Source: Tubulanus polymorphus (taxonomy: Eukaryota; Nemertea; Palaeonemertea; Tubulaniformes; Tubulanidae). Taken from it: DNA of 64,000 bases. The notes under the pieces were generated by a model. It ran no database searches and had not been told where the DNA came from. It saw nothing but the letters and a program-made list of their open reading frames with translations. Numbering within the stretch: position 1 is the stretch's first letter; each line of letters starts with the position of its first letter. The DNA lies in contig NC_134025.1 in the NCBI RefSeq assembly GCF_964204645.1, forward strand, positions 3,539,001-3,603,000, given 5' to 3'. A program made the translations under genes and the position numbers. Shown here in pieces: positions 1,446 through 60,716 of this stretch.

Positions 1446-4400
1446 TTAGCTACATCTTGACAAAACATTTGAAATGTATGAATTATTTTGAGACGTTAAA
1501 TCAGCTTTCAGTTTGTTCATTTCGGTCTTTAATTCTTCATCATTCATCTCTGCAACTGGCAAATCTTTAATCTTCTGTAGAAAACTGTCGATTAGTTTTT
1601 CTCCTTCCTAAAAACAAAGAATCACAGAGTTCTCATATTTCCATCACATCAAACAACATACCGGTACCCACTGATGTTATAATACCCACCTTTTTAGCTA
1701 TCCTTCTTTTCTTATCAGCAGGTTCATCTGAATGATCGGTACTCATTAGGCTACTAACAGATTGATAATCTTCCAAGGAGTTCGCCTTTTCTTTAGCAAA
1801 CTATGAAGTTGAAAAAAGCCAATGATGATGATCAACCCACAATAATCAAACAATAGTATATCTCAATCCATAAAGAAATTACCTGAATAACATGTTTTGG
1901 AAAATGAGCCATTTCTGCTACATGAATTCCAAAACTCTGATCACATACTCCTGTGACAAAAAGCATACAGTAAAGGATAAGTTGAAAACTAAAGAAATAA
2001 ACGAAGTCAATGTAGAAACTTACCAGGCTTTACTCTGTATAGAAGAGTTAGAGTATTATCAGCCGTTAATGCAGTTACATGGAGATTCTTTACGGTTGAA
2101 ACTGAATCCGCTAATGCTGTCAGTTCGTGGAAGTGTGTTGCAAACAAACAAAAAGCTTTTATCTTGGTAGCGATAAACCTGCAATTTCAATGATTGATAT
2201 TTATATACCGTACTGATTGCAAATGGAATCATTACAGTCGAAAAGAATATTCTACTCACTCTGAAATTGCCCAAGCCAAACCAAACCCATCATAGGTGGA
2301 TGTCCCTCGTCCTAGTTCATCAATGATAATCAGCGATGATTCTGATGCCGACTGAAACCAATAGATTTCAATGGAATGAGCTGAATGCGGGAGAATACAT
2401 AATGACCATACTGTCATCATACCCTTACATACCCGTAATATTGATGCAGTTTCCAACATTTCGGCCATAAAAGTTGATACACCTTTCAGTTGACTGTCAC
2501 CAGCTCCGACTCGCGCCAGAATAGAATCAACAATTGAGATTTCAGCTTCGCTACAGGGTACATAACATCCCAACTGAGCCATTAAAACAACCACACCAAT
2601 CTGTTACATAATAATATATTCAATTAAACGTTTTCCTTGATAATTAGCATTACAAACTTAATTAGGTCAGGAATGACTTACAGATCGTATGTACGTAGAC
2701 TTTCCACCCATGTTTGGACCAGTTATTATCTGGAACATGCTATCATCCTTTGAAAAATTGGAATCATTCGGAATAAATGCAACGTCATCCTGCATCTCGA
2801 GACATGGATGACGTACTTCTTTCAAGTGAATCTTTCCAGCACCTATATTTAAATATATATACACACTGCAATACCTGATTTTATCAGTTACATGAAAATA
2901 AAGATAAACGTTAAATTGAAATGCTCTTACCCATTTCTAAGAGCTTAGGTCTTGTATAAGGAAGAGGAGCGCTAGCTGCAACATGGCCAAAACTAACGAG
3001 AACGTCAAGTTTAGCAATGATATCATTCAATGATACCATAGGTTCAATATATCCTGCTGCGATTGACACAATTTCAGACACAACACTTTTCTGTTGCTCA
3101 TTGTACTGCTCTTTAGCTACTAGATAATCATTGTTCAGCTGTCGTAATGAGGTATTATGAAATCTGACACCGTTTTTGTTTGTATCAATTGTGATGTATT
3201 TCTTGTTATTACGAATTGCCTTCTCATCCTAAAATCAACCATCATAAACAATTTTATCGATACAAATGATAAATCAAATCAATCATGAGTCTAAAAGCTC
3301 TAGCTGTTTCCACTTACTTTCCTCGTCACACGGAAGAAATAACCAATCTGTGCATTACTTTCTAGCTTCAATACTTTACTAGGCTCGACATTCAAATCTC
3401 TGGCAACCTACACAATTAATCCAGAAGTCATCCATTACGGTATTCTAATTTCACAAATATTTCAAAATTCATGATGATGATACCTTATTCAATTCAGTCC
3501 TCATTTCTTCTTCAAGTTCATCTAACTTGTTCCTCAGTTCTGTAAATGTATCGAAATGAAATAAGGAGTAATCACCATAACAATTATGGAGACTGAAAAA
3601 TAAGAAATGGATTGACAAATGTGAAGTATCGTTTGTTTACCTTGCAGATTTTCATCAAAATCAGGTTTGATAAGGTATTCATGGTTTTCTATCTGGGTAA
3701 AATCAAGTGTACTTTCAACCATTTCTTGGAACTTAGCAAAATCCATTAACAACTCCTGCAAAATAACAAGATAATATCATCATCTAAACAATAACAATAA
3801 GGCAACATTGAAATCTTTCCTGAATAACAACAAACCTTTGCTGGATTTGTAAAAACTGCCATTAAGAGTGGTTTGTGTTGGCTTTCATTCTTTTCAAGTG
3901 CTTCCAACAAATGGGGCATTTTCTCCAGAGCTTGATAAACCTTGTAACAATCCTGATCAATAGAAAAAGCATAGAGAACTGCTTACAGTGAATGCCACTG
4001 GGTTTCTAAACATATATCACGTTAAAATCTTACCTGAAGACCAGCTTTTTTGCGTTGAAACTTCTTAGCGAGCCGTTGAAAGTCTGGAATTCTGCGGAGC
4101 TGATCTTCTAAGAGAATCTGTCGTAATTCGGTGTCTTCAACGAATGTTTCCACGATGTTTAAACGTTCCTCTATTAAATATAAGTTCATTTTCATATAAG
4201 TCTCAATACAGAAATGAGACTTCAAGGAAGACTTCTCTGGAAGATGATAATGATATTACCTATTTTTCTAATGTCCATTAGCGGCTGTTTCACCCATTGA
4301 CCAATGAGCCTTTGTCCTTGTGCAGTACGACACTTGTTCAATAGTCCAAGAACACTTTGATTCTTATTTCCACCTTCCAGTATAAATACAAACACTGAGA

Positions 4401-26676: not shown

Positions 26677-34575
<7,899 letters not shown>

Positions 34576-40633: not shown

Positions 40634-41895
40634 GAAATAAATGGTTTTCTGCATTTAATATTTTGTACCCTGGTGTTGAAAGTGATCTACTTTTTGTGTG
40701 CGTTCAATATAAATTAAAAATTGTAAATCACGGAGCAACGATTTTGTAGCATTTGTAAATAAATGGACATTTGATAGAAAAAATCTTTTTATTCTATTCC
40801 TGGCATTTGGGTGTTTTTCGTGCATTAATCTCTTCTATAAACAAAGTCCCAGGGATACAAGGACAGTTAGCCTTTTAACACTTGATTTGTTGATTGCATT
40901 GCCTACAAAACCATTTCTATTGATTCTATAGACTTGAATGAATCTGACAAACCAATCAATTATCATCTTTTGATCTATTGATCAAAGGTTCTGGTAAATT
41001 AGTCTTGCTGATTTCAGTTCACTCGTCACTGCACCAAGTTTGGAATCATGTTAATTTTAACGGAATTACTTAAATTTGTCAACTGGACTAATGCAAACTA
41101 ATTAATATGTGATGAAAGACAAAATAAATCCTTTGATCTGAAAAGTGAACTACACTTGAGTGTGCTTGGAATAAAGGAACAATGAATATACAATAAGAAT
41201 CTTTAACCTCTATGTAATATACATTATATATTAATGTGAATCTTGAAGATAATTCGTTAAAATATCTTGTATGATGATTAAAAAGAAAAATGAATCAAGA
41301 ATAGTTTTTGAATCATCTAAATATATATTGACTTAGGTGAGAAAACTGAGTAAAAACTTCAAATTCATTGCATGACTTCAGTCTAGTTTATATGAATGTT
41401 TATTTCATGTACATGATTATTTACTTGGGATACTGTTTTCGATTCTCACAATTCAAATGAAGGTGGATTGTTATGCCATACATCTCAAGCTATGAATTAA
41501 GCATAAAACTCAAAAAGCTTAAAATTCTGTAATTTGTCTTTCATATAAGATGTATAGTTATGTATGGTTTTAATGGGCCTATTGCTAAAACATTTAGAAC
41601 ATTTGAGGAAGCGTATTTCCTGAAGGTTAGTTAAATAACGGAAATATGAAATTTTAGATTTTGCTGAAATATCTTCAGTGATAACTACATGTAATATATA
41701 TTCATTCATCATGAATATACCAGATGATACAGTTAGCCTATAGTATTGTTTGCTGACCTAACAAAATTAGTGACCAGACTAATCAAGTAATTTAACTTCA
41801 GATCAAAAACTCTTGATCAAATTTGAAACAACAGTCACAGGTAATTTAACAGTTTGACCAATGAGAGGAAAGCAATTAGCTTTAATTAGAGAAAT
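40634..41895. other. Intergenic region between PAXBP1 and the homeobox gene
   Basis: AT-rich, no recognisable exon or RNA gene. The right end carries promoter-like sequence of the homeobox gene. Confidence 0.5.
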
Positions 41896-41975
41896 AAACC
41901 AATCAAAATGAGGATGTAAGTTAGGACATTGGTCTTATGGGTATAAATACCCCGAGTTTTTGGAGAGAAATCATT
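41896..41975 (+). promoter_or_regulatory. TATA-type promoter of the homeobox gene
   Basis: TATAAATA at 41942-41949 is preceded by CCAAT motifs (ACCAATCAAAAT near 41900 and GACCAATGAG near 41857). Transcription would start about 30 bp on, near 41975, giving a 5' UTR of roughly 40 bases before the ATG at 42015. The open frame extends back to 41937 only because it reads through the TATA box. Confidence 0.6.
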
Positions 41976-42014: not shown

Positions 42015-43612
42015 ATGGCAGAATCCGTATCAACACCCGTGTCTGAGATCACTCCGAGCATAGTCATGCATCATAAACCTCTTCTACGTCGCAACCTTCG
42101 ACATCTACTAGACAATGCATCTGAAAACACGAAAAATGTCCTCCAATTGTTGAAATGTGAGAAAGAAGTGAGCATCCAACCCGCAGATATCATAGGCAGC
42201 ATGGATGAATGGTTTAACGATGGACTGGGTGTTGAAGTAGAAGAAATTGAGAATGAACTTTGTAAAGTCATCGCTGAAGAAGTTTCTGCTATTGATGACA
42301 AAGAAGAAATTGTAATATTCGATCTGAAAGCAGAGCTTGATTACAGCAATAGTTTCGGTTCGAATTTCACTGTGAATACCACCATGGAGTCCCCGAGCGA
42401 AAACAGCAAAAGCAAAACATCACTGCATGTCGAATCAAGATATGCGATGAGTTCAAGTGATGAAATTCAGCCGTCATCCTTATCGTCATACAGTCTGTTC
42501 GACAGTGATCTCCTTTCGTCCGGTTCAAATGGTGATTGCAACAGTAGCAGCAGTTTAAACCTGACATCTCTCATTGAACGCTTCGATAAGGTGAACAATG
42601 AAAAGGAAAACAAGGAGAATTGCGTAGATGTTCATTTGAGTCAATCGACATCTAATGTAACGGATATAAGTTTTTCGGATTTCTTTAGTGTTGAACTCAG
42701 TGATGATGTTTATGACTCGGAGAACTCGAGTTATGTTTTACTCAGCGAAAAATCGGATATTTCCACTCCTAATACTTCTTGTACATCATTTCTCGCATCG
42801 AATCCTGGACAATTCTTATCTTCAACACCAGTGGCGAATCATGCGTATTTGGAACCAGGGTCTCTTCTCATGTCTCCCATTAACACGCGTTGTTCGTTGT
42901 TTACCCCGGTGACTGAAGACAGCGGAATGTCTCAATTAATTTTCACATGCGAAGAATCGTCAAATCTGGTCGTCATCCGTCTGCGAGAGATTGAAGCCGA
43001 ATTACATCAAGTTGTAAATCGATACAGCGCCCCTCATCTATGGGACCAATACATTCAATCATATAAACAGGTAAGATTACCGCCGATATTGCGATTGAAT
43101 TAAAGTACTAATCTTAAAAAAAATAATTTCATTTGAAATAATCTTATTCGTGTTTGTTTTTTCAGGCAGATGATACCAAACGGAAGACGATGGCACGAGT
43201 TACGTACAAAAGCCGTGAATACTACTTAGTGCAGCTTCAGTTCAATGATGATTTACTTCACCTCGTCGATAAAACATCGCAGGATCTGAAATACTTCAAA
43301 GCGCAGCTCAATTGTCAAAATTCTACGATGAAACAAAGACTAGCCAGACGTCGCAAGCAAAATATCAGCAACATCGTACCGGCGACGGACTCTAAAATTG
43401 TGAAATCGAACGTTGTACTATCGAGGAAATCGACGCACACTAAAGTTCTCAACGATTGGTTCCAGGCGAATATCACTCATCCGTATCCAAAATCGTACGA
43501 TATTGTTCAGTTGGGGCGAGCTACTGGATTACCGGAAAAAAACATCAAGAAATGGTTTGAAAATAAACGGTATGCAATTCGCAGAAGTGTGGGCTTAGTC
43601 AAATCTTTCTAG
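42015..43612 (+). CDS. Divergent TALE-class homeobox transcription factor
   Basis: Two exons (42015-43070 and 43166-43612) encode about 500 residues. I chose the ATG at 42015 (MAESVSTPVSEI) because the frame upstream lies over a TATA box. The first ~350 residues are Ser/Glu/Asp-rich with no domain I know. The C-terminal ~60 residues form a homeodomain: HTKVLNDWFQANITHPYPKS, then GLPEKNIKKWFENKRYAIRR. It aligns without gaps to PBX (ILNEYFYSHLSNPYPSEE ... WFGNKRIRYKK), including the PYP loop of TALE proteins and W48, F49, N51 and R53. Position 50 is Glu, which is unusual and may alter DNA preference. The short tail ends SVGLVKSF. It lacks PBC, MEIS or IRO companion domains, as do spiralian SPILE genes. 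Poly(A) signal at 43848-43853. Confidence 0.88.
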
Positions 43613-44027: not shown

Positions 44028-46803
44028 CTACTCCGCTGAGTCTATTCTCTTTGGCCAATCAAGTTGAACATTCTGAAATGAAATATGAAGCATACTTTAC
44101 AAAATACAAAACACATGAGAGCAATCAATCGAAAACATTGATTATGTTTTACCTCGACATCCAGAGCTAAAATATCACACTCTGACTCTAGTATACTTCC
44201 TAAATTTGGTGTAGTTCGACAAAAATCTCCGTGAACAAATTCTTTGATGTAACTATCGAACACTTGAATTAAGGGTAGTATTCAAAATACAACAAACAGT
44301 TATGACAAACAGTTATCTAAAAGGATACGTTCCGGCTTGAGTTTTCAATGACAATTTAAAGTGATGTCTGTCTAGATATTCTGCAGACATCGAATGAATA
44401 GTCCTCTCTCGAACTGCCAGGGGGCGCCTGAAATACCAGATGAATTAAAACTTAACCAATGAAATGAGGCAAGTTTTACAGTTTTTAATTCATTTTGAAG
44501 AATTTCAGAGGTGGATTTTCATTGTTTACATTATGGAATTAATACCATTGTCTTATTTGGGATAAAATAAAGGTTTGATATATGCAATAGTAGAGGTTTC
44601 ACTGTATATTAATTTCATACCTGTGTAAAACTCTTATAGGTGTTTTTTGATTTAGTACTAAGTCTGTAATTCCATTGATTTTATTGTCAAGTGTTGGTTG
44701 AGTTACAGCGTCTTTAACCCAACATAAAGCAGAGTACGACTTTGTTTTCTCCATTTCTCCATCCTTCAAATTACTTGTATCGTCCTTAGTGATCATTTGT
44801 AAATCTCTGATTTGAACGACAGAGCAAGCAGAATTGATCATCTGAAATAAAAGTAATAGCAAATTATGCCTACATTATAATGAATCTTATAGAAATTTTC
44901 AATTTTACCTGCTGCAGAGATTTCATGTCTTCAGACGAAAAAGAAGTTCGCTTTGGATTGATAAATTCCACAGCAAAGGGGCGACCTAAACGAGTGAAAA
45001 AATCAATATTCACTTGCAGTTTCTGCAGGACTGAGAACATCCATCTAACAATCACTACTTACCACTGCCCAACATACGTACATCAACATCTTCTCTACCA
45101 GACGATGAAAACTTCAAATCTGAAACAACATTCATTCATAACTTGTATTATATTCTCCGATCACAGGTTCAAACAGGTTCATAAAATGCTAACCATCGGA
45201 TTTGACATAAGTTTCCAAAATATCACAGATTTTTTCCTGAACTGATGATTCCATTTTCTTTTCGCCATCAATTAACCAAGGAGTCTGACTCAATTTCCTT
45301 GAATACTTGTTATAACGACCTGAAATATTTCAAGCAGAACAACATCAGCGATCAATGAATAACATATTTACTCATTTCTGAATATCAGCTTATACTTACC
45401 AGCCATATATAAGGATAAATGTGAGCATGAAATCTTATCACAAATAGATTTCAGTACAGGGTTTATTGGAGGACACTGTGAATACCTAAAAACACATTTC
45501 CAAAATAAAGAGAACGACCCAAGAAGCAGTCAATCAAACAATGAATATGCAACTCTAATCACACTTACTTTTTGAATGAGGATTCAAGACATGAGTCTAA
45601 AGCTTTAGAAACATTAGCTCGAGTAAACAACTCCCAACCATACTAAAATCATTATAGAATTGTGTTAACTTAATGAATTTTGAATGGACTTGTATGAAAG
45701 GTTTCTATCTGTATTTACCCTGTTGTTCTTCCTTTTTTTGAAAATTTCAGGAAACAATTCAGTTCTAAAATAGTAATAAGTTACTAATTCAACCTAAATA
45801 GGCCTAACAGAAGTACCTATGCACAAAGTGTCTAGGTTACCAATGTCATCAGATGAAGGTTAAAAATACTTACAGAAATGAAAGTTCCTCATTATTTTTC
45901 TCATAAGTGAAGGTAAGGGATATTTCAAAAGGACTCTGAAAACGAGACCAATAATCTAATATCTAGGCCTATAGCAATAAACAACAGAATTTTAACATTA
46001 TTTAAAGTACAAACCTCTTGTTGAAAAGGTACTCCTAACTTTTTAGCCAATCGAGTCATGCAAATATTTTTCCAAACATCTTTAACTTGAAGAACATCAG
46101 TTTCTTTTTCATAAGACCTAAAAAATTTACACACCGGTGTCGCTTAATTGAATATAAAATTTAGCCATCAAAAGATAATGTACATTTGCTTTGACACTCA
46201 CGGGCATTTATCCTTGATAGTTAACCAAATTGAATGCTGAAAGTAAATAAATGCTTCAAGTTTAAAGTAAATATTTGCATTTTTTTATAAATATTCCACT
46301 GCTATTTACCTCCCTTTTCAACACACAAATTGGTAACGTAATGGAACAAAAGAAATTATGGAATTCATGGTCAGTGGATTTGATCGTATCTGATATCTAA
46401 AAAGAGAGAAAAAGCTTATGCTTAATGATTGAATATGAAAATCATACACCATTTGTCTTATCTTGATAAGGTTCACTACCTTTTCTATAAAATCGTCAGC
46501 TGTATGTTCTTGAAGAATTCCTAAACAGCTACAACAAACATTTTGAGTGATAGATAAAGATTTTTCTGATGTCAATTCTTCTAAATGTGCTTGGAGTTCC
46601 TTATAAAAGAAGATGTAAGGATTAGAAAGCCTTGTTTCTCATTGAAAGTTCTGTTTATTAGTTCACTAATAATAATCAATTACCTGTGGCTGTTTATTGA
46701 AAACTAGGCTGTCCTTTTCACCACTGAGACGCAGTGCACACAAGGCACAGCATCCTATATCTAATAATACTGATGCAACAGATGGCTTACAGGGTATGGA
46801 CAT
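44028..46803 (-). CDS. PUS10: tRNA pseudouridine synthase PUS10
   Basis: Makes pseudouridine 54/55 in the tRNA T-arm; the human enzyme also affects microRNA processing. The start exon gives MSIPCKPSVASVLLDIGCCA with CCALCALRL, then NVCCSCLGILQEH, the zinc-binding CxxC pairs of the family's N-terminal domain. A THUMP-like middle follows. The catalytic exon reads SSGREDVDVRMLGSG (around 45066-45105), holding the catalytic aspartate, then RLGRPFAVEFINPKR, IQVRDLQMITK-like QIRDLQMITKDD, SYSALCWV, LNQKTPIRVLHRR and YIKEFVHGDFCRTTPNLGSI. The last exon ends NVQLDWPKRIDSAE, stop 44028-44030; human ends SVDVDWPPALDD. At least a dozen short exons. Divergent from the acyl-CoA oxidase gene 385 bp away. 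Confidence 0.93.
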
Positions 46804-53052: not shown

Positions 53053-56000
53053 TTACCGTCTTTGCTTTTGAATGGTTCTGTGGTCAGTTTTCTTAAACTT
53101 TTCGTAATCACTTTCATCTTCTGATGATGTCAGCAGTGGATATATTCCTTGTGTAACTGGCTGTTTAGATTTGACAGCTGACGATTGATTCTTCGTCGGG
53201 GATATTTTCTTTTTGTCGACCGTCTTTTTTATGACCGCTGTCTCTTGTAACTGTTTCAGTTTTGCATGCGACGTTGATTTGGTCCATGAACGTTTGTGGC
53301 AATGTGGCTGGTCACTACTGTCGCTATCAGATGAGGAAGACTGAGACTTTGGTTCTGTAATCATGTGCATGACTACTTGTTGCTGTTGTAGAGACCGTCT
53401 TTGCAGAGGGCTATGGCTACTATCAGAGATTATTTCACCATCTTCACTAGGCGATTTATGTCTAGATGGACTGCGAGAAGGGCTACGGCCGCTTTGTCGA
53501 TCTGAACGACCGCGATAGTGTTTGTTTCTATAACGGTCTTTATCTGGAGAATATTTCGCTTTATTGTATCTACTTTTGGTAACTCCACTTGATTTTGACG
53601 ACTTTTCTTTTTGACTTATAGACGTCGAACTTGCTTTATATTCAGAATTATGCCCCGTTTTATGAGTAGCATGAGTCTTTCGTCCTGCATAGGGGCTAAC
53701 AGATTTTGACTTTTCATGATTCTTTGTCTTTTCTTCACTTCTTCCATAACTCCTTTTATATCCTTTAAATTCATCATCTTTTCTAGCTACTTTCCTATGG
53801 TAATCAGGCTTATCTAGATTTGGTTTTGATTTCGTTTTGCTGCCAAAAACCTTCTTTTGCATCAGGTTACTGTCACTTTTAATGCTAGGCGAAGGACTAC
53901 GCCTCTTTGGTGCAGGACTGACTGACTTGGATTTGAATTTTTCCTTTGCAATAATTGAAATCTTTTTCTCTTCTTTAACCTCTTCAATTGATTTCTTAAT
54001 GCGCAATGAATCTTTAACAGCTTCTTCGCTGTGCGATGGCTTTGGCTCCTCATGATGCTTGTGCTCCGATATTGGTTCTGGAGTTGATTTCTGAATATGG
54101 ATTGGTTCGCTAATTGGTTCTTCAATAGACAAATCATCTTTATTTGGCTCTTCAATATGACACGGCGGTTTCACGGGCTGATCGATAACTGGCGATTTGC
54201 TTTTACTTTGCATTTGAGAAACACACGAAGAGGATGAAGATGCCGAAGATGACGAAGAACTTGAAGTTGAACTACTGCTTGAACTACTACTACTACTACT
54301 AGAACTGCTGTCACTATCATCATCCGATGACCATTTTTGTCCTTTATCAATTATCGGCAAACAAGTCAACTGAGAAGTAGGTGATACCGTGACAGTTGGT
54401 ACAAGGAAATCCGACCCAAACAACTCTTTCGGGACGTCAGGTTGCATTTCATATTCACTCATAGATGCTTTGATATCGGTTTTATTCGAAGTTATAGATT
54501 CTTGTGAATTCATACATTCTTTCACAGGCGAAACATTTCTTGATCGTTTTGCTGGTGAAATATTTCCCTCGTGTGAAGAAACTTTTGGTGCAGGCGACAA
54601 TACATGTTCATAACCCTGTATATTAGGATGTTTTGATGGAGATTTACTCCGTTCTTCTGGGATTTGCTTCATCAATGTTGATTTTCCTGTTTTCTTCACA
54701 GGGGACATATCGCCACTAATAGATTGTCCAGTTGAAATGGTTTCAGTTTTTGATTCATCTGGCAACTCTTTATTCTGAAAAGATTTCTCTGTAATCTCTT
54801 GTTCAGTTAATTTGAGAATCCTTATTTGCTCCGATTCGTTACAAACTTCAACCTTCTTGGATGGTGATCTAATATCATCATTGTAGTTATACGATTGATC
54901 GCTTTTTATTTTCAGCTTTCCAGTTACTTCGTATTTGATTCCTGAACTTTCTAATAATTTCGTTGAATATATCCATTCATCTGCATTTTCATTTCCGTTT
55001 CCTTTGCTTTCACCTGGCTCATTAGATGGTTTTTCTTCACTTTCCATTTCAAGTTTTTGAGCCACACTTTCTTTTTCACTCGATCTGCTTTCTTTGGTCG
55101 ACATACTCTCTTCACTGCCGGTACTTATGTAAGTCTGATTTTCTAATTTCTCAGATTGATGGGCATGATCGACCACTGAATCTTTTGTGCATTTTTCATC
55201 TTCAGATTCAAAATCGTTTTGCCTCTCATTAGAATTTTCCATGCTACAAAGAGATGCTGATCTTGCGGGAGAGGAACACGTACTACCTGAATGGAAAGAA
55301 CCTGATCCAGACCAACTAGAGCGCATAGAACAACAGCAACTCGCATCTGATGCTGGTGACTGCGATCTTGATCGGGATCCACATTCAGCAGCTTCATTTG
55401 TTTCATCAAGATTCTTATCACCAGAATGATATTCATCAACTTCATTATTTGATTGAGAAGAATCTTTAATATCTTGAGTAGCAACCTCTGAAAAGATTTG
55501 TCTTTCTTTATCACGATGTGAGTTCCTTTGTTCAGAATCATCAGACTTCTCTTCTATATTGGCCTCAACATTATCTATATCTAACGGACATTTAACTGCC
55601 TCCGATGACTGTGCCTCTTTTACTTCAGTTTCCTCCATGCCACTGATATTCATAAATTGAGTCTTTGCTGCTTCCTCAAACTTAGCCTCTTGAAATTTCT
55701 GTTCTTTTTCATGAACATTCGTTACTGGTAATCCCTGAATTTCTTTTTCAGTTCTCGCTAATTGCTTTCTTAAATTCTCCATAGTACCACTTGTAAAATA
55801 CGCAACGGGTTTGCAAAACTTTCCACTTGGTTGTTCGCTGATTTGTATGTTACTTTCATCAGTCTTATCTTGACCTTTAGCCTCAATTGCATGGTGATGA
55901 TCATTAACATTTTCTTGAGCACGGTCATCAGTTGGCGAACAAGGTAGATCACTATAAATATCATCTGATGATGACTGACAAAGAACTGCAAATGGTGAAG

Positions 56001-59000
56001 TTTGGTTTCCCGTAGAATCGTCATTGCTTGCAGTGTTCAATTCTTTATCTTCTTCGTCAGAATTCGCTTTGGACTTTTTGCGGAAAGGGGATGGTGTTCG
56101 ACTTGAGAGCTGATCATTTGATTCACTACTTTCAGTTATTCTACTCTCAATGGGAACTAGTGGTTCACGATTATAATCACTACTGATAGGTATATCATTT
56201 GAGACAATAGCAACAATCTCTGTTACACCCTCTGATGTTGACAAACAATCATTTACTTCGTCAGATTGGAGTTCTAAAATAACATTCCCGTTCTCTTTGA
56301 TTTGATCATTAACCTTTTGGGTTGAGGAGGATGATTCAGTACTTGGTTCTTTACATGATGATGATTCAATATCAACATTTTGCTTTGTAGATGGCTCATT
56401 CTGTTTCTCAAAAGTATTTTCGACACTATCCTTAGGATCATAAACTGCATACATAGGACTTAAAGGGAGAGAAATCTCCGGATTCTCTTCGGTTAAGTGT
56501 GGTACGGCCTCTACAGTAGTTTCAGATTCCAATTGTACCTCAATGGTACCTATCTGCACCATATCTGCCATAATAACATGTTCATCACTCAGTCCAATTC
56601 CATGGGCCTCCCAGGGTGACATTTCCCTCCTTTGTGGCGATACGGACTGTGGTCTACTGTATATAGATGGCTCTGGTGAGGAAATATCAGTTCGATCTCT
56701 AACTGACGGTTTATGAAAATATGGTGCGGGTGATGCAGCACCTTCACTTTCTATAAACATGCCTGGTGATCTGTCATACATTGGAGACATATGTTGGCTT
56801 TGGTCAGGGGTTCTATTTACACTTGGTGAACAATGCGCCGGAGAAACAGAACATCTTGGTTCAGGAGAAGGTATTTGCTGACACGAAGGCGACTCGGCAT
56901 ATTTGTTCAAAGGTCGATTATTTTCCTCTCTCGAGGACGAATGTTCAGATTTCAATCGTTTCTTAGATTTAGAATACCTTTTGCCATCTCTGTAGTGACC
57001 ATACGGCAATACTTGTGGTTCCTTTAGTGCTTTTTCATTGTATATCTCAGATACGTGTCTTTTTGTCTTTGAAGATTTGGCTTCAGTAACGACAGGATAT
57101 TTTTCGTCCATCACGAATTTTGATGACTGAGCAAGTTCACTAGTTTCCTTTTGTATTTCATGAAGAGATTTCGACCGATGGGACTTTGAATGCTTTTTGG
57201 ACCTGGAATGTTGACTTGCGGCAACAGTTTCATGTTTCTCTTCATAACAAATCTGACTCGTGTGCACTGTTGGGCCTACTCCCAATGATTTGGAGTCTAG
57301 TGGGTGGACTACCTGACGATCCCCTGATTTACTACGAGATTTTGAGTGTTTCTTAGATTTGGAATGCTTTTTGCTTTCGATTTCTTCAAACTCCTCTTCA
57401 TCGCAGAAAACTCCACTTGATGACAATGCCACTGAGGAACTATTCGATTTCTTTTTCTTCTTTTTCTTGACTAAAATCCCATCACTTTCAATCCTCATCT
57501 TCTTCTCTTTTTCCTTGTGCTTTTTATGTTTCTTTGGATGTTCATTGTCATTCTTATTCTTTTTTCTTTTTTCTCTCTTTGTAGAGGATTCGAGTTGTCT
57601 CTCATTATTCAACTCAATAACTGGTTTAGTGTCTATAATTTTTTGTCCTTGTACTGTGTCCAATGCGTTAGATGCGTGACTTGATTGCTTCAGCAAATCC
57701 TTTTTGTCAAGACGAATTTGAGCTTCTTCGTGAATTTGTTTTTCATTAACGTCATCCAACGTTTCGGTCTTTTTCATTTCATGAATGAATTTCTCGCTAT
57801 CTTTTTTCGGCACAGATCGATTGATATCATTTATCATTGGTTTTATTTCCATAGATTTGTTAAAGCCTGTAGATGCAAGCTGGAAATTTTCCAAACTTTC
57901 GGAAGACTTCTCTTTGAATTTTCTTAACATCTCTGTATGAACTTCACTAATAACCTTTTTTGGTTTTGACTCCAATGAGGTATTAGGATACAAACTCTGG
58001 TCAACGTGACACCCAACGCGGCCTTCGTTTTTCATATCATTTTCATCTTTTGTCAATGCAGCTGAATTGAGAATATTATCAATTTGGGCAGATTTAGCTT
58101 TGGGGGAAGACTTTGACTTATGCGATATTGTTCTACTAATATGTGTATTGCTTGATTGTTGAGACTGCTTCGATCGTCTAGAACCAACAGATGGAGACCG
58201 ACTAGTGGCTTGGCTTGCAGGCACTGAACTTTTATTTCCAGTCTTCCTTTCGTCAGTACTGCTCCCAAGTTGTTTTTCAAGGAACTTGCTTCTTTTTCGA
58301 GGTATTTCATCTGTTACTGCAGATGGACTAATGTCCCGTGAGCTGCTATCAACGAAACTTGGCACAGAAAGTGTTCCTACATTTTCGTATTGATTGATAG
58401 ACGGTACAGTTGATAACTGATCCTCTGCCTTATGATGAACCTTTTCTGGGTGATCTCTGTATGATGAGGGAGCCGGTGATGGAGATGACCATTGACTTTT
58501 ATTCCTTTTGGTTTCAGAAACCAATGACCGACTTCTATCTGAAATTTCTGAAGCAGAACAAGGTTCTCTCGACAACTGTAATTTTAGCTTTTCTCGTTCC
58601 CTGGTCAGCATTTTATACTCTTCATCTTCGGTTATTGAGGCATATGGAATACACGTGTGTCTATCTTGCGCATGCTGATATATAGAGTCCTCTTCTGAAG
58701 AAGGTCGATATTCGGGTTGCTTTGGCTTTTTCTTGTGGCTATCTTTAGATTTGTTTGATTTACTAGACTTATGACTGTCCTGTCGTTCATATAAAGTACG
58801 GATCTTTGTAGCACTTTGCCCATCGCTCTTACTTGATCGGCGTGACTCCGTTGCTTGTTGCATTACCGATTGCTTACGCCATTCATGCAACTTTAATTCA
58901 TCAATTAACTTTTGTCGAAGTTGTCCAGATGAAGTGTCAGATCGTTGAGTCAACATATCTTCCTCAATGATATGCTGCCTTGCTTTGGGTGAATCAACAC

Positions 59001-60716
59001 TTTTCATTCGATGCTCCTTAGAACGCTGACGTTTCAGTTTGCGTATTAGTGCCGCTCTCTCAGCTGCTTCGGCGTCACTAGATTCATGTTGAATTGATCG
59101 TTTATCTGAAGAAGGAGACTTGTACATATATCCTTGAACTGTTCTCTTATCTTGACTGCACACATGTAAATAATCATGATTCCTCATATACTTTTCTTTC
59201 CTGCCACTCATCAAAGCGTTATCTATCATTTCATACTTGTAAGGTTTTTTCATATATGTTCCAACATAATCAGCTTCTAATTTAGTGGTTGCTATCAATC
59301 TTTCTGGTGATAAAACTGGTGAAGGTACAGGTGGTAACTGCTGTTTCTGAAATCGCTTTTGTTGCATGACATACTGTCTCGTCCAGTCTATATCATTTTC
59401 GTCACTAGCAGGGCTACTATTGCGAGTCTGGTAAGCTAAAGGCAATTCTGCTTTTCTTTGTGCTCTTGCTTGTCTTTCCAAACTCCTCTCGGGTGAACTT
59501 GAAAAGTTTCGTGGAATTTGTTTCGGTTTTGCTTGCGGCAGCATACTTTCATCAGACAGAGGCGAATGAATCATCAACTTTTTATCTTTCTTTAAGATAT
59601 CTGTCGGTGCTTGCTCCAGAGGTGGAGGAGGCGGTGGTGGCAGTGGTGTTGACTGTGGTAATGGCGGTACAGGGGGTAACAGCCCATGCCTTTGGCGCTT
59701 AGATTTCTTAGTTCCTGTACTACTAAATGGCTTAACCACTTTAGGTGAAGAATTCCTCGAATCCGATTTTCTATGACGGCGTTTAGTCTTGGAATACTTC
59801 CAGGGAGCTGATGATTCTTTACCATGATAATCAGAATTTGGTGATAGATTCTGGCTAGATGTTGGGGACATTGATGGAGATGGGGGAAAATTCTTCTTTG
59901 CTTTTACATGTAATCGCTCTGTGGATGAGTGACTAAATGAAGTTTCGCTCGTCACAGGAGATAACGATAATGGTCGATGAGGAGGTCGTTTGTTAGTCAT
60001 TGCCCTGTCTGGTGAAGGTGAGATAGGTTTTATTTTACGCTGTGGTGATGGTGAGCCATGATAAGGTGATGATGCCGAAGGTGAGATCTCCCGTTTTCGA
60101 CGACAGTAATGCTGTTTCGACGAACTGATCAAATGCTCACTTATTACTACACCCGATTTCTGCATTTTCTTCAACCTGCTCGCTGAGAAACCCGAACGTC
60201 GGTCTTTCCTTAGGGAACAACCCGATCCATCACTTACTCTCCGCTCAGAGATATTTGAAGATTGTTCATATCCACAACTTGATGATGATGAATTGCTCAA
60301 GCGTCTCTTTCTCCGTCCATGATTGCCAGAATCGGGTGACTGCCAGTATGGCTCTTTTTCAATTACCAATGGAGACGACACCCTTTTCTTCTTCTTTTTA
60401 AGGATATCATTAGCAGACTGCCAATACTGTTCATCTCCTGTGTCACCGGATCGCTTGGAAATGGATGGAGAACTGAAAGATACCAAGGTTAGAATCTTCA
60501 TTAGGATTTAAACCAGACATGTGAAATAACCCACCAAGATGTACCAATATACATGCAGTTACGAATGTATTGATGAAAATGGTGAATACGTTGATTTAAC
60601 TGACCTAATTCCCGATCGAAGTCCACGACATCAAGAGGTCCCTTTTTACCACAAGTAGTGTAAGACTGGTGACAACATAATATGAAGCACATGAAGTGTG
60701 AGTGTGAAACATTCAT
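53053..60716 (-). CDS. Giant Ser/Lys/Arg-rich, probably nuclear, low-complexity protein
   Basis: One exon of about 7.4 kb (53053-60474) encodes some 2470 residues with no stop. An upstream exon (ending near 60528) adds TTCGKKGPLDVVDFDRELGQ and LNQRIHHFHQYIRN. Its start may be ATG 60714-60716 or lie further up. The protein is dominated by SP dipeptides and RS/KS repeats, for example KKHSKSKKHSKSRSKS near 57330. It also has KEKEKK basic runs, a proline run (PPPPPPP, about 59640) and a polyserine block (54220-54310). It ends YPLLTSSEDESDYEKFKKTD and IQKQRR. This composition is typical of splicing-speckle or mRNA-processing scaffolds such as SRRM2 or SON, but I recognise no specific orthologue. 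The stop codon TAA overlaps a splice donor. It lies 65 bp downstream of the RRM gene on the same strand, so the two may be one transcript. Confidence 0.85.
54220..54310 (-). repeat. Polyserine codon tract
   Basis: A run of Ser codons (AGT/AGC/TCT/TCA mixed) encodes about 30 serines with only Thr and Ala interruptions inside the giant protein. The mixed codons suggest selection for serine rather than simple replication slippage. Confidence 0.8.

Follow-up and report, generated by a model that had tools for sequence, protein, structure and literature searches.

An unusually diverged TALE homeobox gene, probably of SPILE type, with an altered recognition helix and a core promoter layout common to its paralogues

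The window considered here, a stretch of 64,000 nucleotides (G000:C1:3539001-3603000) from a genome of 268 Mb, harbours a real and intact two-exon homeobox gene at 42015-43612, referred to below as the query gene (Table 1). Its exons are joined at canonical splice sites (donor GTAAGA, acceptor TTTTTTCAG) to yield a product of 500 amino acids, and since the intron carries in-frame TAA codons, read-through is impossible. Codon usage scores highest in frame +1 of both exon 1 (0.13 bits/codon) and exon 2 (0.19 bits/codon) and is negative in every frame of the flanks. While the query gene has an intron, most of its non-canonical TALE sister genes consist of an uninterrupted open reading frame.

Downstream, exons of the pseudouridine synthase PUS10 (44602-46638, minus strand) are arranged convergently with the query gene. 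Elsewhere on the minus strand, the window contains exons of the MutS family encoding domains IV and V (2259-3228), a full-length U2 spliceosomal RNA gene (28612-28804, 188 bits) and a single open frame of 2484 amino acids rich in Ser, Lys and Arg (53056-60507), whose SR-type stretches would be compatible with a nuclear speckle-type protein. Outside the window, some 31 kb downstream from the homeobox of the query gene, lies a divergent non-TALE homeodomain (NIWFQNKRARVKK; L027, G000:C1:3613635-3613736, minus strand). A tandem or cluster origin of the query gene was rejected, as it is separated by long distances from the remaining C1 genes of the non-canonical TALE set.

Table 1. Features of the query gene and its proximal promoter, in window positions.
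Feature	Position	Strand	Evidence or remark
CCAAT box (GACCAATGAG)	41858..41862	+	sequence
TAATTA site, over-represented in the upstream regions of the non-canonical TALE genes	41883..41888	+	sequence
Second CCAAT box	41899..41903	+	sequence
Third CCAAT box, inverted (ATTGG on +)	41928..41932	-	sequence
TATA box TATAAATA, 73 bp upstream of ATG	41942..41949	+	position shared with sister genes
Exon 1	42015..43070	+	ATG start; 352 N-terminal residues (codons), acidic, Ser-rich, without known domain; phase 0
Candidate activation region: residues 216-245 (TDISFSDFFSVELSDDVYDSENSSYVLLSE), the 30-residue stretch richest in acidic/aromatic residues	42660..42749	+	composition
Intron	43071..43165	+	95 bp, GT-AG, phase 0, in-frame stops
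Exon 2	43166..43612	+	residues 353-500 including the homeodomain; TAG stop included
TALE homeodomain, 63 residues (about 432-494)	43403..43591	+	Pfam, PDB sequence matches, AlphaFold2, Foldseek
PYP of the three-residue loop extension	43481..43489	+	sequence
Recognition-helix motif WFENKR with E50, N51, R53; Ala55 two residues on	43553..43570	+	sequence
Polyadenylation signal AATAAA	43848..43853	+	downstream of exon 2

The original prediction of a C-terminal homeodomain with the TALE-type PYP loop, aligning to PBX without gaps, is borne out by several lines of evidence. The protein displays the three-residue loop extension with PYP between helices 1 and 2 that defines the TALE class, and a Pfam scan places Homeobox_KN (PF05920) at residues 450-487 with 35.5 bits (cut-off 24) and Homeodomain (PF00046) near the C terminus with 31.5 bits (cut-off 22.9). 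The best sequence matches in the PDB are PBX1 and Exd (E about 1e-5), and the alignment with PBX1 runs free of gaps across residues 443-496. An AlphaFold2 model of exon 2, built from a single sequence (mean pLDDT 71, pTM 0.33), contains the three homeodomain helices (87-101, 110-120 and 124-147), and its best Foldseek matches are homeodomains, including those of Exd, Meis, PKNOX and MATalpha2. Beyond the homeodomain families, the Pfam scan of the query protein found no other or companion domain, in keeping with the proposed lack of PBC, MEIS, IRO and TGIF companions. Likewise, the N-terminal exon of about 350 residues, said at the outset to resemble nothing known, matched no Pfam domain, and in the host genome it matched only itself, with no second copy. 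Its 352 residues comprise 56 Asp and Glu, 23 Lys and Arg, and 61 Ser. From this composition, the acidic, Ser-rich N-terminal half may serve in activation of transcription, with the stretch given in Table 1 as a candidate activation region, while the C-terminal homeodomain would bind DNA.

The recognition helix of the query protein is exceptional. Among 19 TALE homeodomains for which this helix was available, E50, A55 and N44 are found in the query alone, and where the query has Ala at position 55, all the remaining ones carry Arg. In known TALE-DNA structures, the G of the TGA core is contacted by Arg55, so a protein devoid of this residue would be expected to recognise DNA differently or less strongly. 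The query thus appears to have lost a DNA-contact residue that all relatives compared have retained, and the combination of Arg55 loss and Glu50 gain should shift or weaken the standard TGA-type recognition. A rather unlikely alternative is that the query protein has given up specific DNA binding and acts by contacting proteins, in which case it might compete with other SPILE or TALE factors. Ala55 and Glu50 in the recognition helix, set against Arg55 in every other homeodomain compared, would be in line with such a role, as would the additional changes of Gln44 and Val45; however, W48, F49, N51 and R53 are kept, and the end of the helix remains basic (RR at 57-58). This alternative fits a SPILE-type origin of the gene and bears on its mechanism only. 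Glu50 itself, which had been pointed out within WFENKR, is indeed present and departs from the I, A or G at position 50 that is diagnostic for TALE genes (PMC5322547). Because several non-canonical paralogues also deviate from I, A or G at this position (S, N), Glu50 is regarded as a sign of divergence and not as grounds for exclusion from the TALE class.

The TALE genes of the genome were collected by a Homeobox_KN search, which also picks up SIX genes. The canonical set encompasses TGIF (L001), IRX (L002, L005 and L006), MKX (L003), MEIS/PKNOX-type exons (L021 and L024) and a PBX exon (L018). Besides the query there are 10 non-canonical TALE genes (L007, L008, L010, L013, L014, L016, L019, L020, L023 and L022/L011). 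The initial view of the query as a non-canonical member is supported, and so is its residence in a genome with the spiralian TALE expansion. The last of them, L022/L011 (G000:C12:4539346-4539771, plus strand), is a single gene that combines two TALE homeodomains with a PADRE-like region; two homeodomains typify TALE-IV/SPILE-B (PMC6118893, PMC8524836), and it is this gene that points to a probable spiralian origin of the genome. The PADRE-like region, 128-149 amino acids upstream of the homeodomain, is common to L016, L019, L020, L022 and L023 and recovers each of these five members in a leave-one-out search at 32-89 bits; by its position, its distribution and published descriptions it is read as PADRE. 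Compared by description, the two-homeodomain gene and the PADRE-like region are traits that mark the spiralian TALE (SPILE) expansion known from the literature. Two pairs of non-canonical genes lie close together: L013 and L014 (G000:C5:20740970-20775140) are nearly identical, including their proximal promoters, and occupy opposite strands about 34 kb apart, and L008 and L010 (G000:C1:31217601-31220805) are arranged head to head in a stretch of about 3 kb.

The non-canonical TALE genes also have a core promoter layout in common. For comparison, short stretches upstream of 20 Fox/bHLH genes of the same genome served as controls, their start codons being set at the first Met codon of each open frame, and a TATA-like box was defined as an 8-mer with 7 or 8 of 8 matches to TATAWAWR. 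Of the nine non-canonical TALE genes, 8/9 have such a box between -110 and -45 relative to the ATG, as compared to 1/9 and 3/9 in two bins further upstream and to 2.6 on average in random sequence from the window, which reached a value as high in 1/2000 draws. The proportion is likewise higher than in the Fox/bHLH genes (5/20, Fisher p 0.002), a comparison in which some sister genes are close duplicates and the TALE set is somewhat more A+T-rich than the controls; when only exact TATA matches are counted, there is no difference (3/9 versus 2/20, p 0.16). In a test picked after the sequences had been looked at, the nine TALE genes contain 13 TAATTA sites versus 1.4 expected (0/2000) and 2 in the 20 controls, and the motif is present in 6/9 TALE genes as opposed to 2/20 controls (p 0.004). 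CCAAT boxes showed no significant difference between the TALE set (7/9) and the Fox/bHLH controls (10/20, p 0.16). Within the window, no comparable TATA match was found upstream of the first Met of the three neighbours examined, consistent with the earlier claim that the TATA and CCAAT promoter of the query gene sets it apart from its surroundings.

Several observations place the query gene next to the PADRE-bearing genes. An in-genome search retrieved L020 (E 1.5e-6), L023 (7.8e-5), L016 (2.1e-4) and L019 (4.0e-4), all of PADRE type, as the best matches, and none of the matches reported, with E values up to 1, was to a canonical TALE. The match with L020 extends upstream of the homeodomain, and the reverse search from L023 recovers the query (E 4.1e-5). 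In a homeodomain tree of 20 rows, an in-genome proxy, the query groups with L019, L020 and L023 (79/96, the node not being starred). The starred clade of the canonical genes (95/93) does not include it, and its terminal branch measures 5.8 changes per site. Moreover, a basic pair at positions 46-47 occurs in the query (KK), L019 (RR), L020 (RK), L023 (RK) and, for L022, the first of the two homeodomains (KK); all remaining rows of the comparison lack it. By search, tree position and residues 46-47, there is modest support for PADRE-bearing genes as the closest in-genome relatives of the query, which most likely derives from this group. The phylogeny called for by the original prediction, with the canonical TALE families included, favours the PADRE-type genes by grouping, yet on this long branch the unstarred node and the AU tests make no placement decisive: neither a clade of the query with PBX nor one with MEIS, TGIF, IRX and MKX is rejected (p-AU 0.13 each).

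PADRE itself is not claimed for the query, because neither of the two in-genome profiles used in the search gives a significant match (3.5 bits for the first, with 29/2000 shuffles as good, and 255/2000 for the second). In addition, homeodomain identity amounts to 30% or less with any relative (PBX 25%, MEIS2 29%, PADRE-type paralogues 25-30%). The suggestion of a SPILE-like member is partly supported: it holds with respect to the PADRE-bearing nearest relatives and the shared promoter layout, and is qualified by the excessive branch length and the undetected PADRE. With a probability of about 0.68, the query gene would represent a strongly diverged, single-copy SPILE-type TALE gene, set beside the published SPILE genes by their descriptions. 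The best reading of these comparisons is an unusually fast-evolving new member of the known extra spiralian TALE homeobox genes, which are deployed in the early embryos of snails, mussels, worms and related animals.

Similar to the SPILE A/C-clade genes (TALE clades VI, VII, XV and XVII of molluscs), the query has a TALE homeodomain of non-canonical type, its nearest in-genome relatives carry a PADRE-like domain, and it is basic at 46-47, which is reminiscent of QVKK, the motif of TALE Clade VI (Paps et al., PMC5322547). Unlike these genes, it is devoid of a detectable PADRE, features E50 together with A55 and has an intron, and its identity to the relatives in its own genome is 30% at best. 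SPILE-E/TALE-III, a spiralian non-canonical TALE type reported to be without PADRE, can be likened to the query by description only. SPILE-B/TALE-IV is represented in the genome by the two-homeodomain gene on C12, whose first homeodomain shares K46-K47 with the query; the query itself has a single homeodomain according to Pfam, and PADRE was not detected in it.

An affiliation with the canonical families has to be weighed against this SPILE-type reading. The query could be a fast-evolving duplicate of a PBX- or MEIS-family gene that lost its companion domain independently of the SPILE expansion. Its best solved-structure sequence matches are PBX1/Exd, its identity to MEIS2 equals that to the best paralogues, and a monophyletic group with either PBX or the remaining canonical TALEs is not rejected (p-AU 0.13). 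On the other hand, the closest in-genome matches are of PADRE type, with no canonical TALE among those reported up to E 1, none of the canonical rows in the comparison has the basic pair at 46-47, and the query shares its promoter layout with the non-canonical set, so that such a duplicate is considered improbable. As for PBX/Extradenticle, the query lacks a PBC domain, has E50 for G50 and A55 for R55, and is not joined to PBX in the tree; the resemblance appears to be limited to the gap-free alignment, identity being no higher than to MEIS2 or the PADRE-type paralogues. Similarly, the query carries no companion domain of MEIS/PKNOX, IRX, TGIF or MKX and lies outside the starred clade of these families, albeit with the p-AU of 0.13 given above. 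Finally, a decaying gene or pseudogene whose unused homeodomain is drifting, to which the very long branch and the loss of an otherwise constant residue might point, is very improbable because the 500-codon frame is free of lesions and codon usage is coding-like in both exons, and splice sites, core promoter and polyadenylation signal are all in place.

With regard to the function of the SPILE-type gene proposed here, guidance comes from other animals. The first genes to be transcribed from the zygotic genome of Drosophila are short, frequently lack introns and show an enrichment of TATA boxes (PMC3743134). Novel TALE genes of the oyster are expressed from egg to blastula (PMC5322547), SPILE genes of mussel and limpet in cleavage-stage blastomeres (PMC8524836), and in Owenia more than 10 unclassified TALE genes rise early (PMC12550047). 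By analogy, expression of the query in the early embryo is most likely, and the gene is probably active at that stage: its strong TATA/CCAAT promoter and short, intron-poor transcript would allow it to be expressed in a rapid burst, probably at cleavage stages. A tentative and rather doubtful extension is that a common promoter type (TATA, CCAAT, TAATTA) drives the animal's spiralian TALE genes, while the rebuilt helix of the query (E50, A55) would confer a new DNA target or turn the protein into a non-binding regulator in early blastomere specification.

The loss of Arg55 in conjunction with E50 and the promoter layout common to the paralogues are the less expected observations made at this locus. 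Fast-evolving novel TALE genes have been recruited into the strongly conserved programme of spiral cleavage, and the manner of their integration is unsettled. A member devoid of Arg55, together with sister genes sharing a core promoter, offers an entry to what such proteins bind, and the promoter sharing among the sister genes bears on whether their sharply timed early expression could be due to one promoter type.
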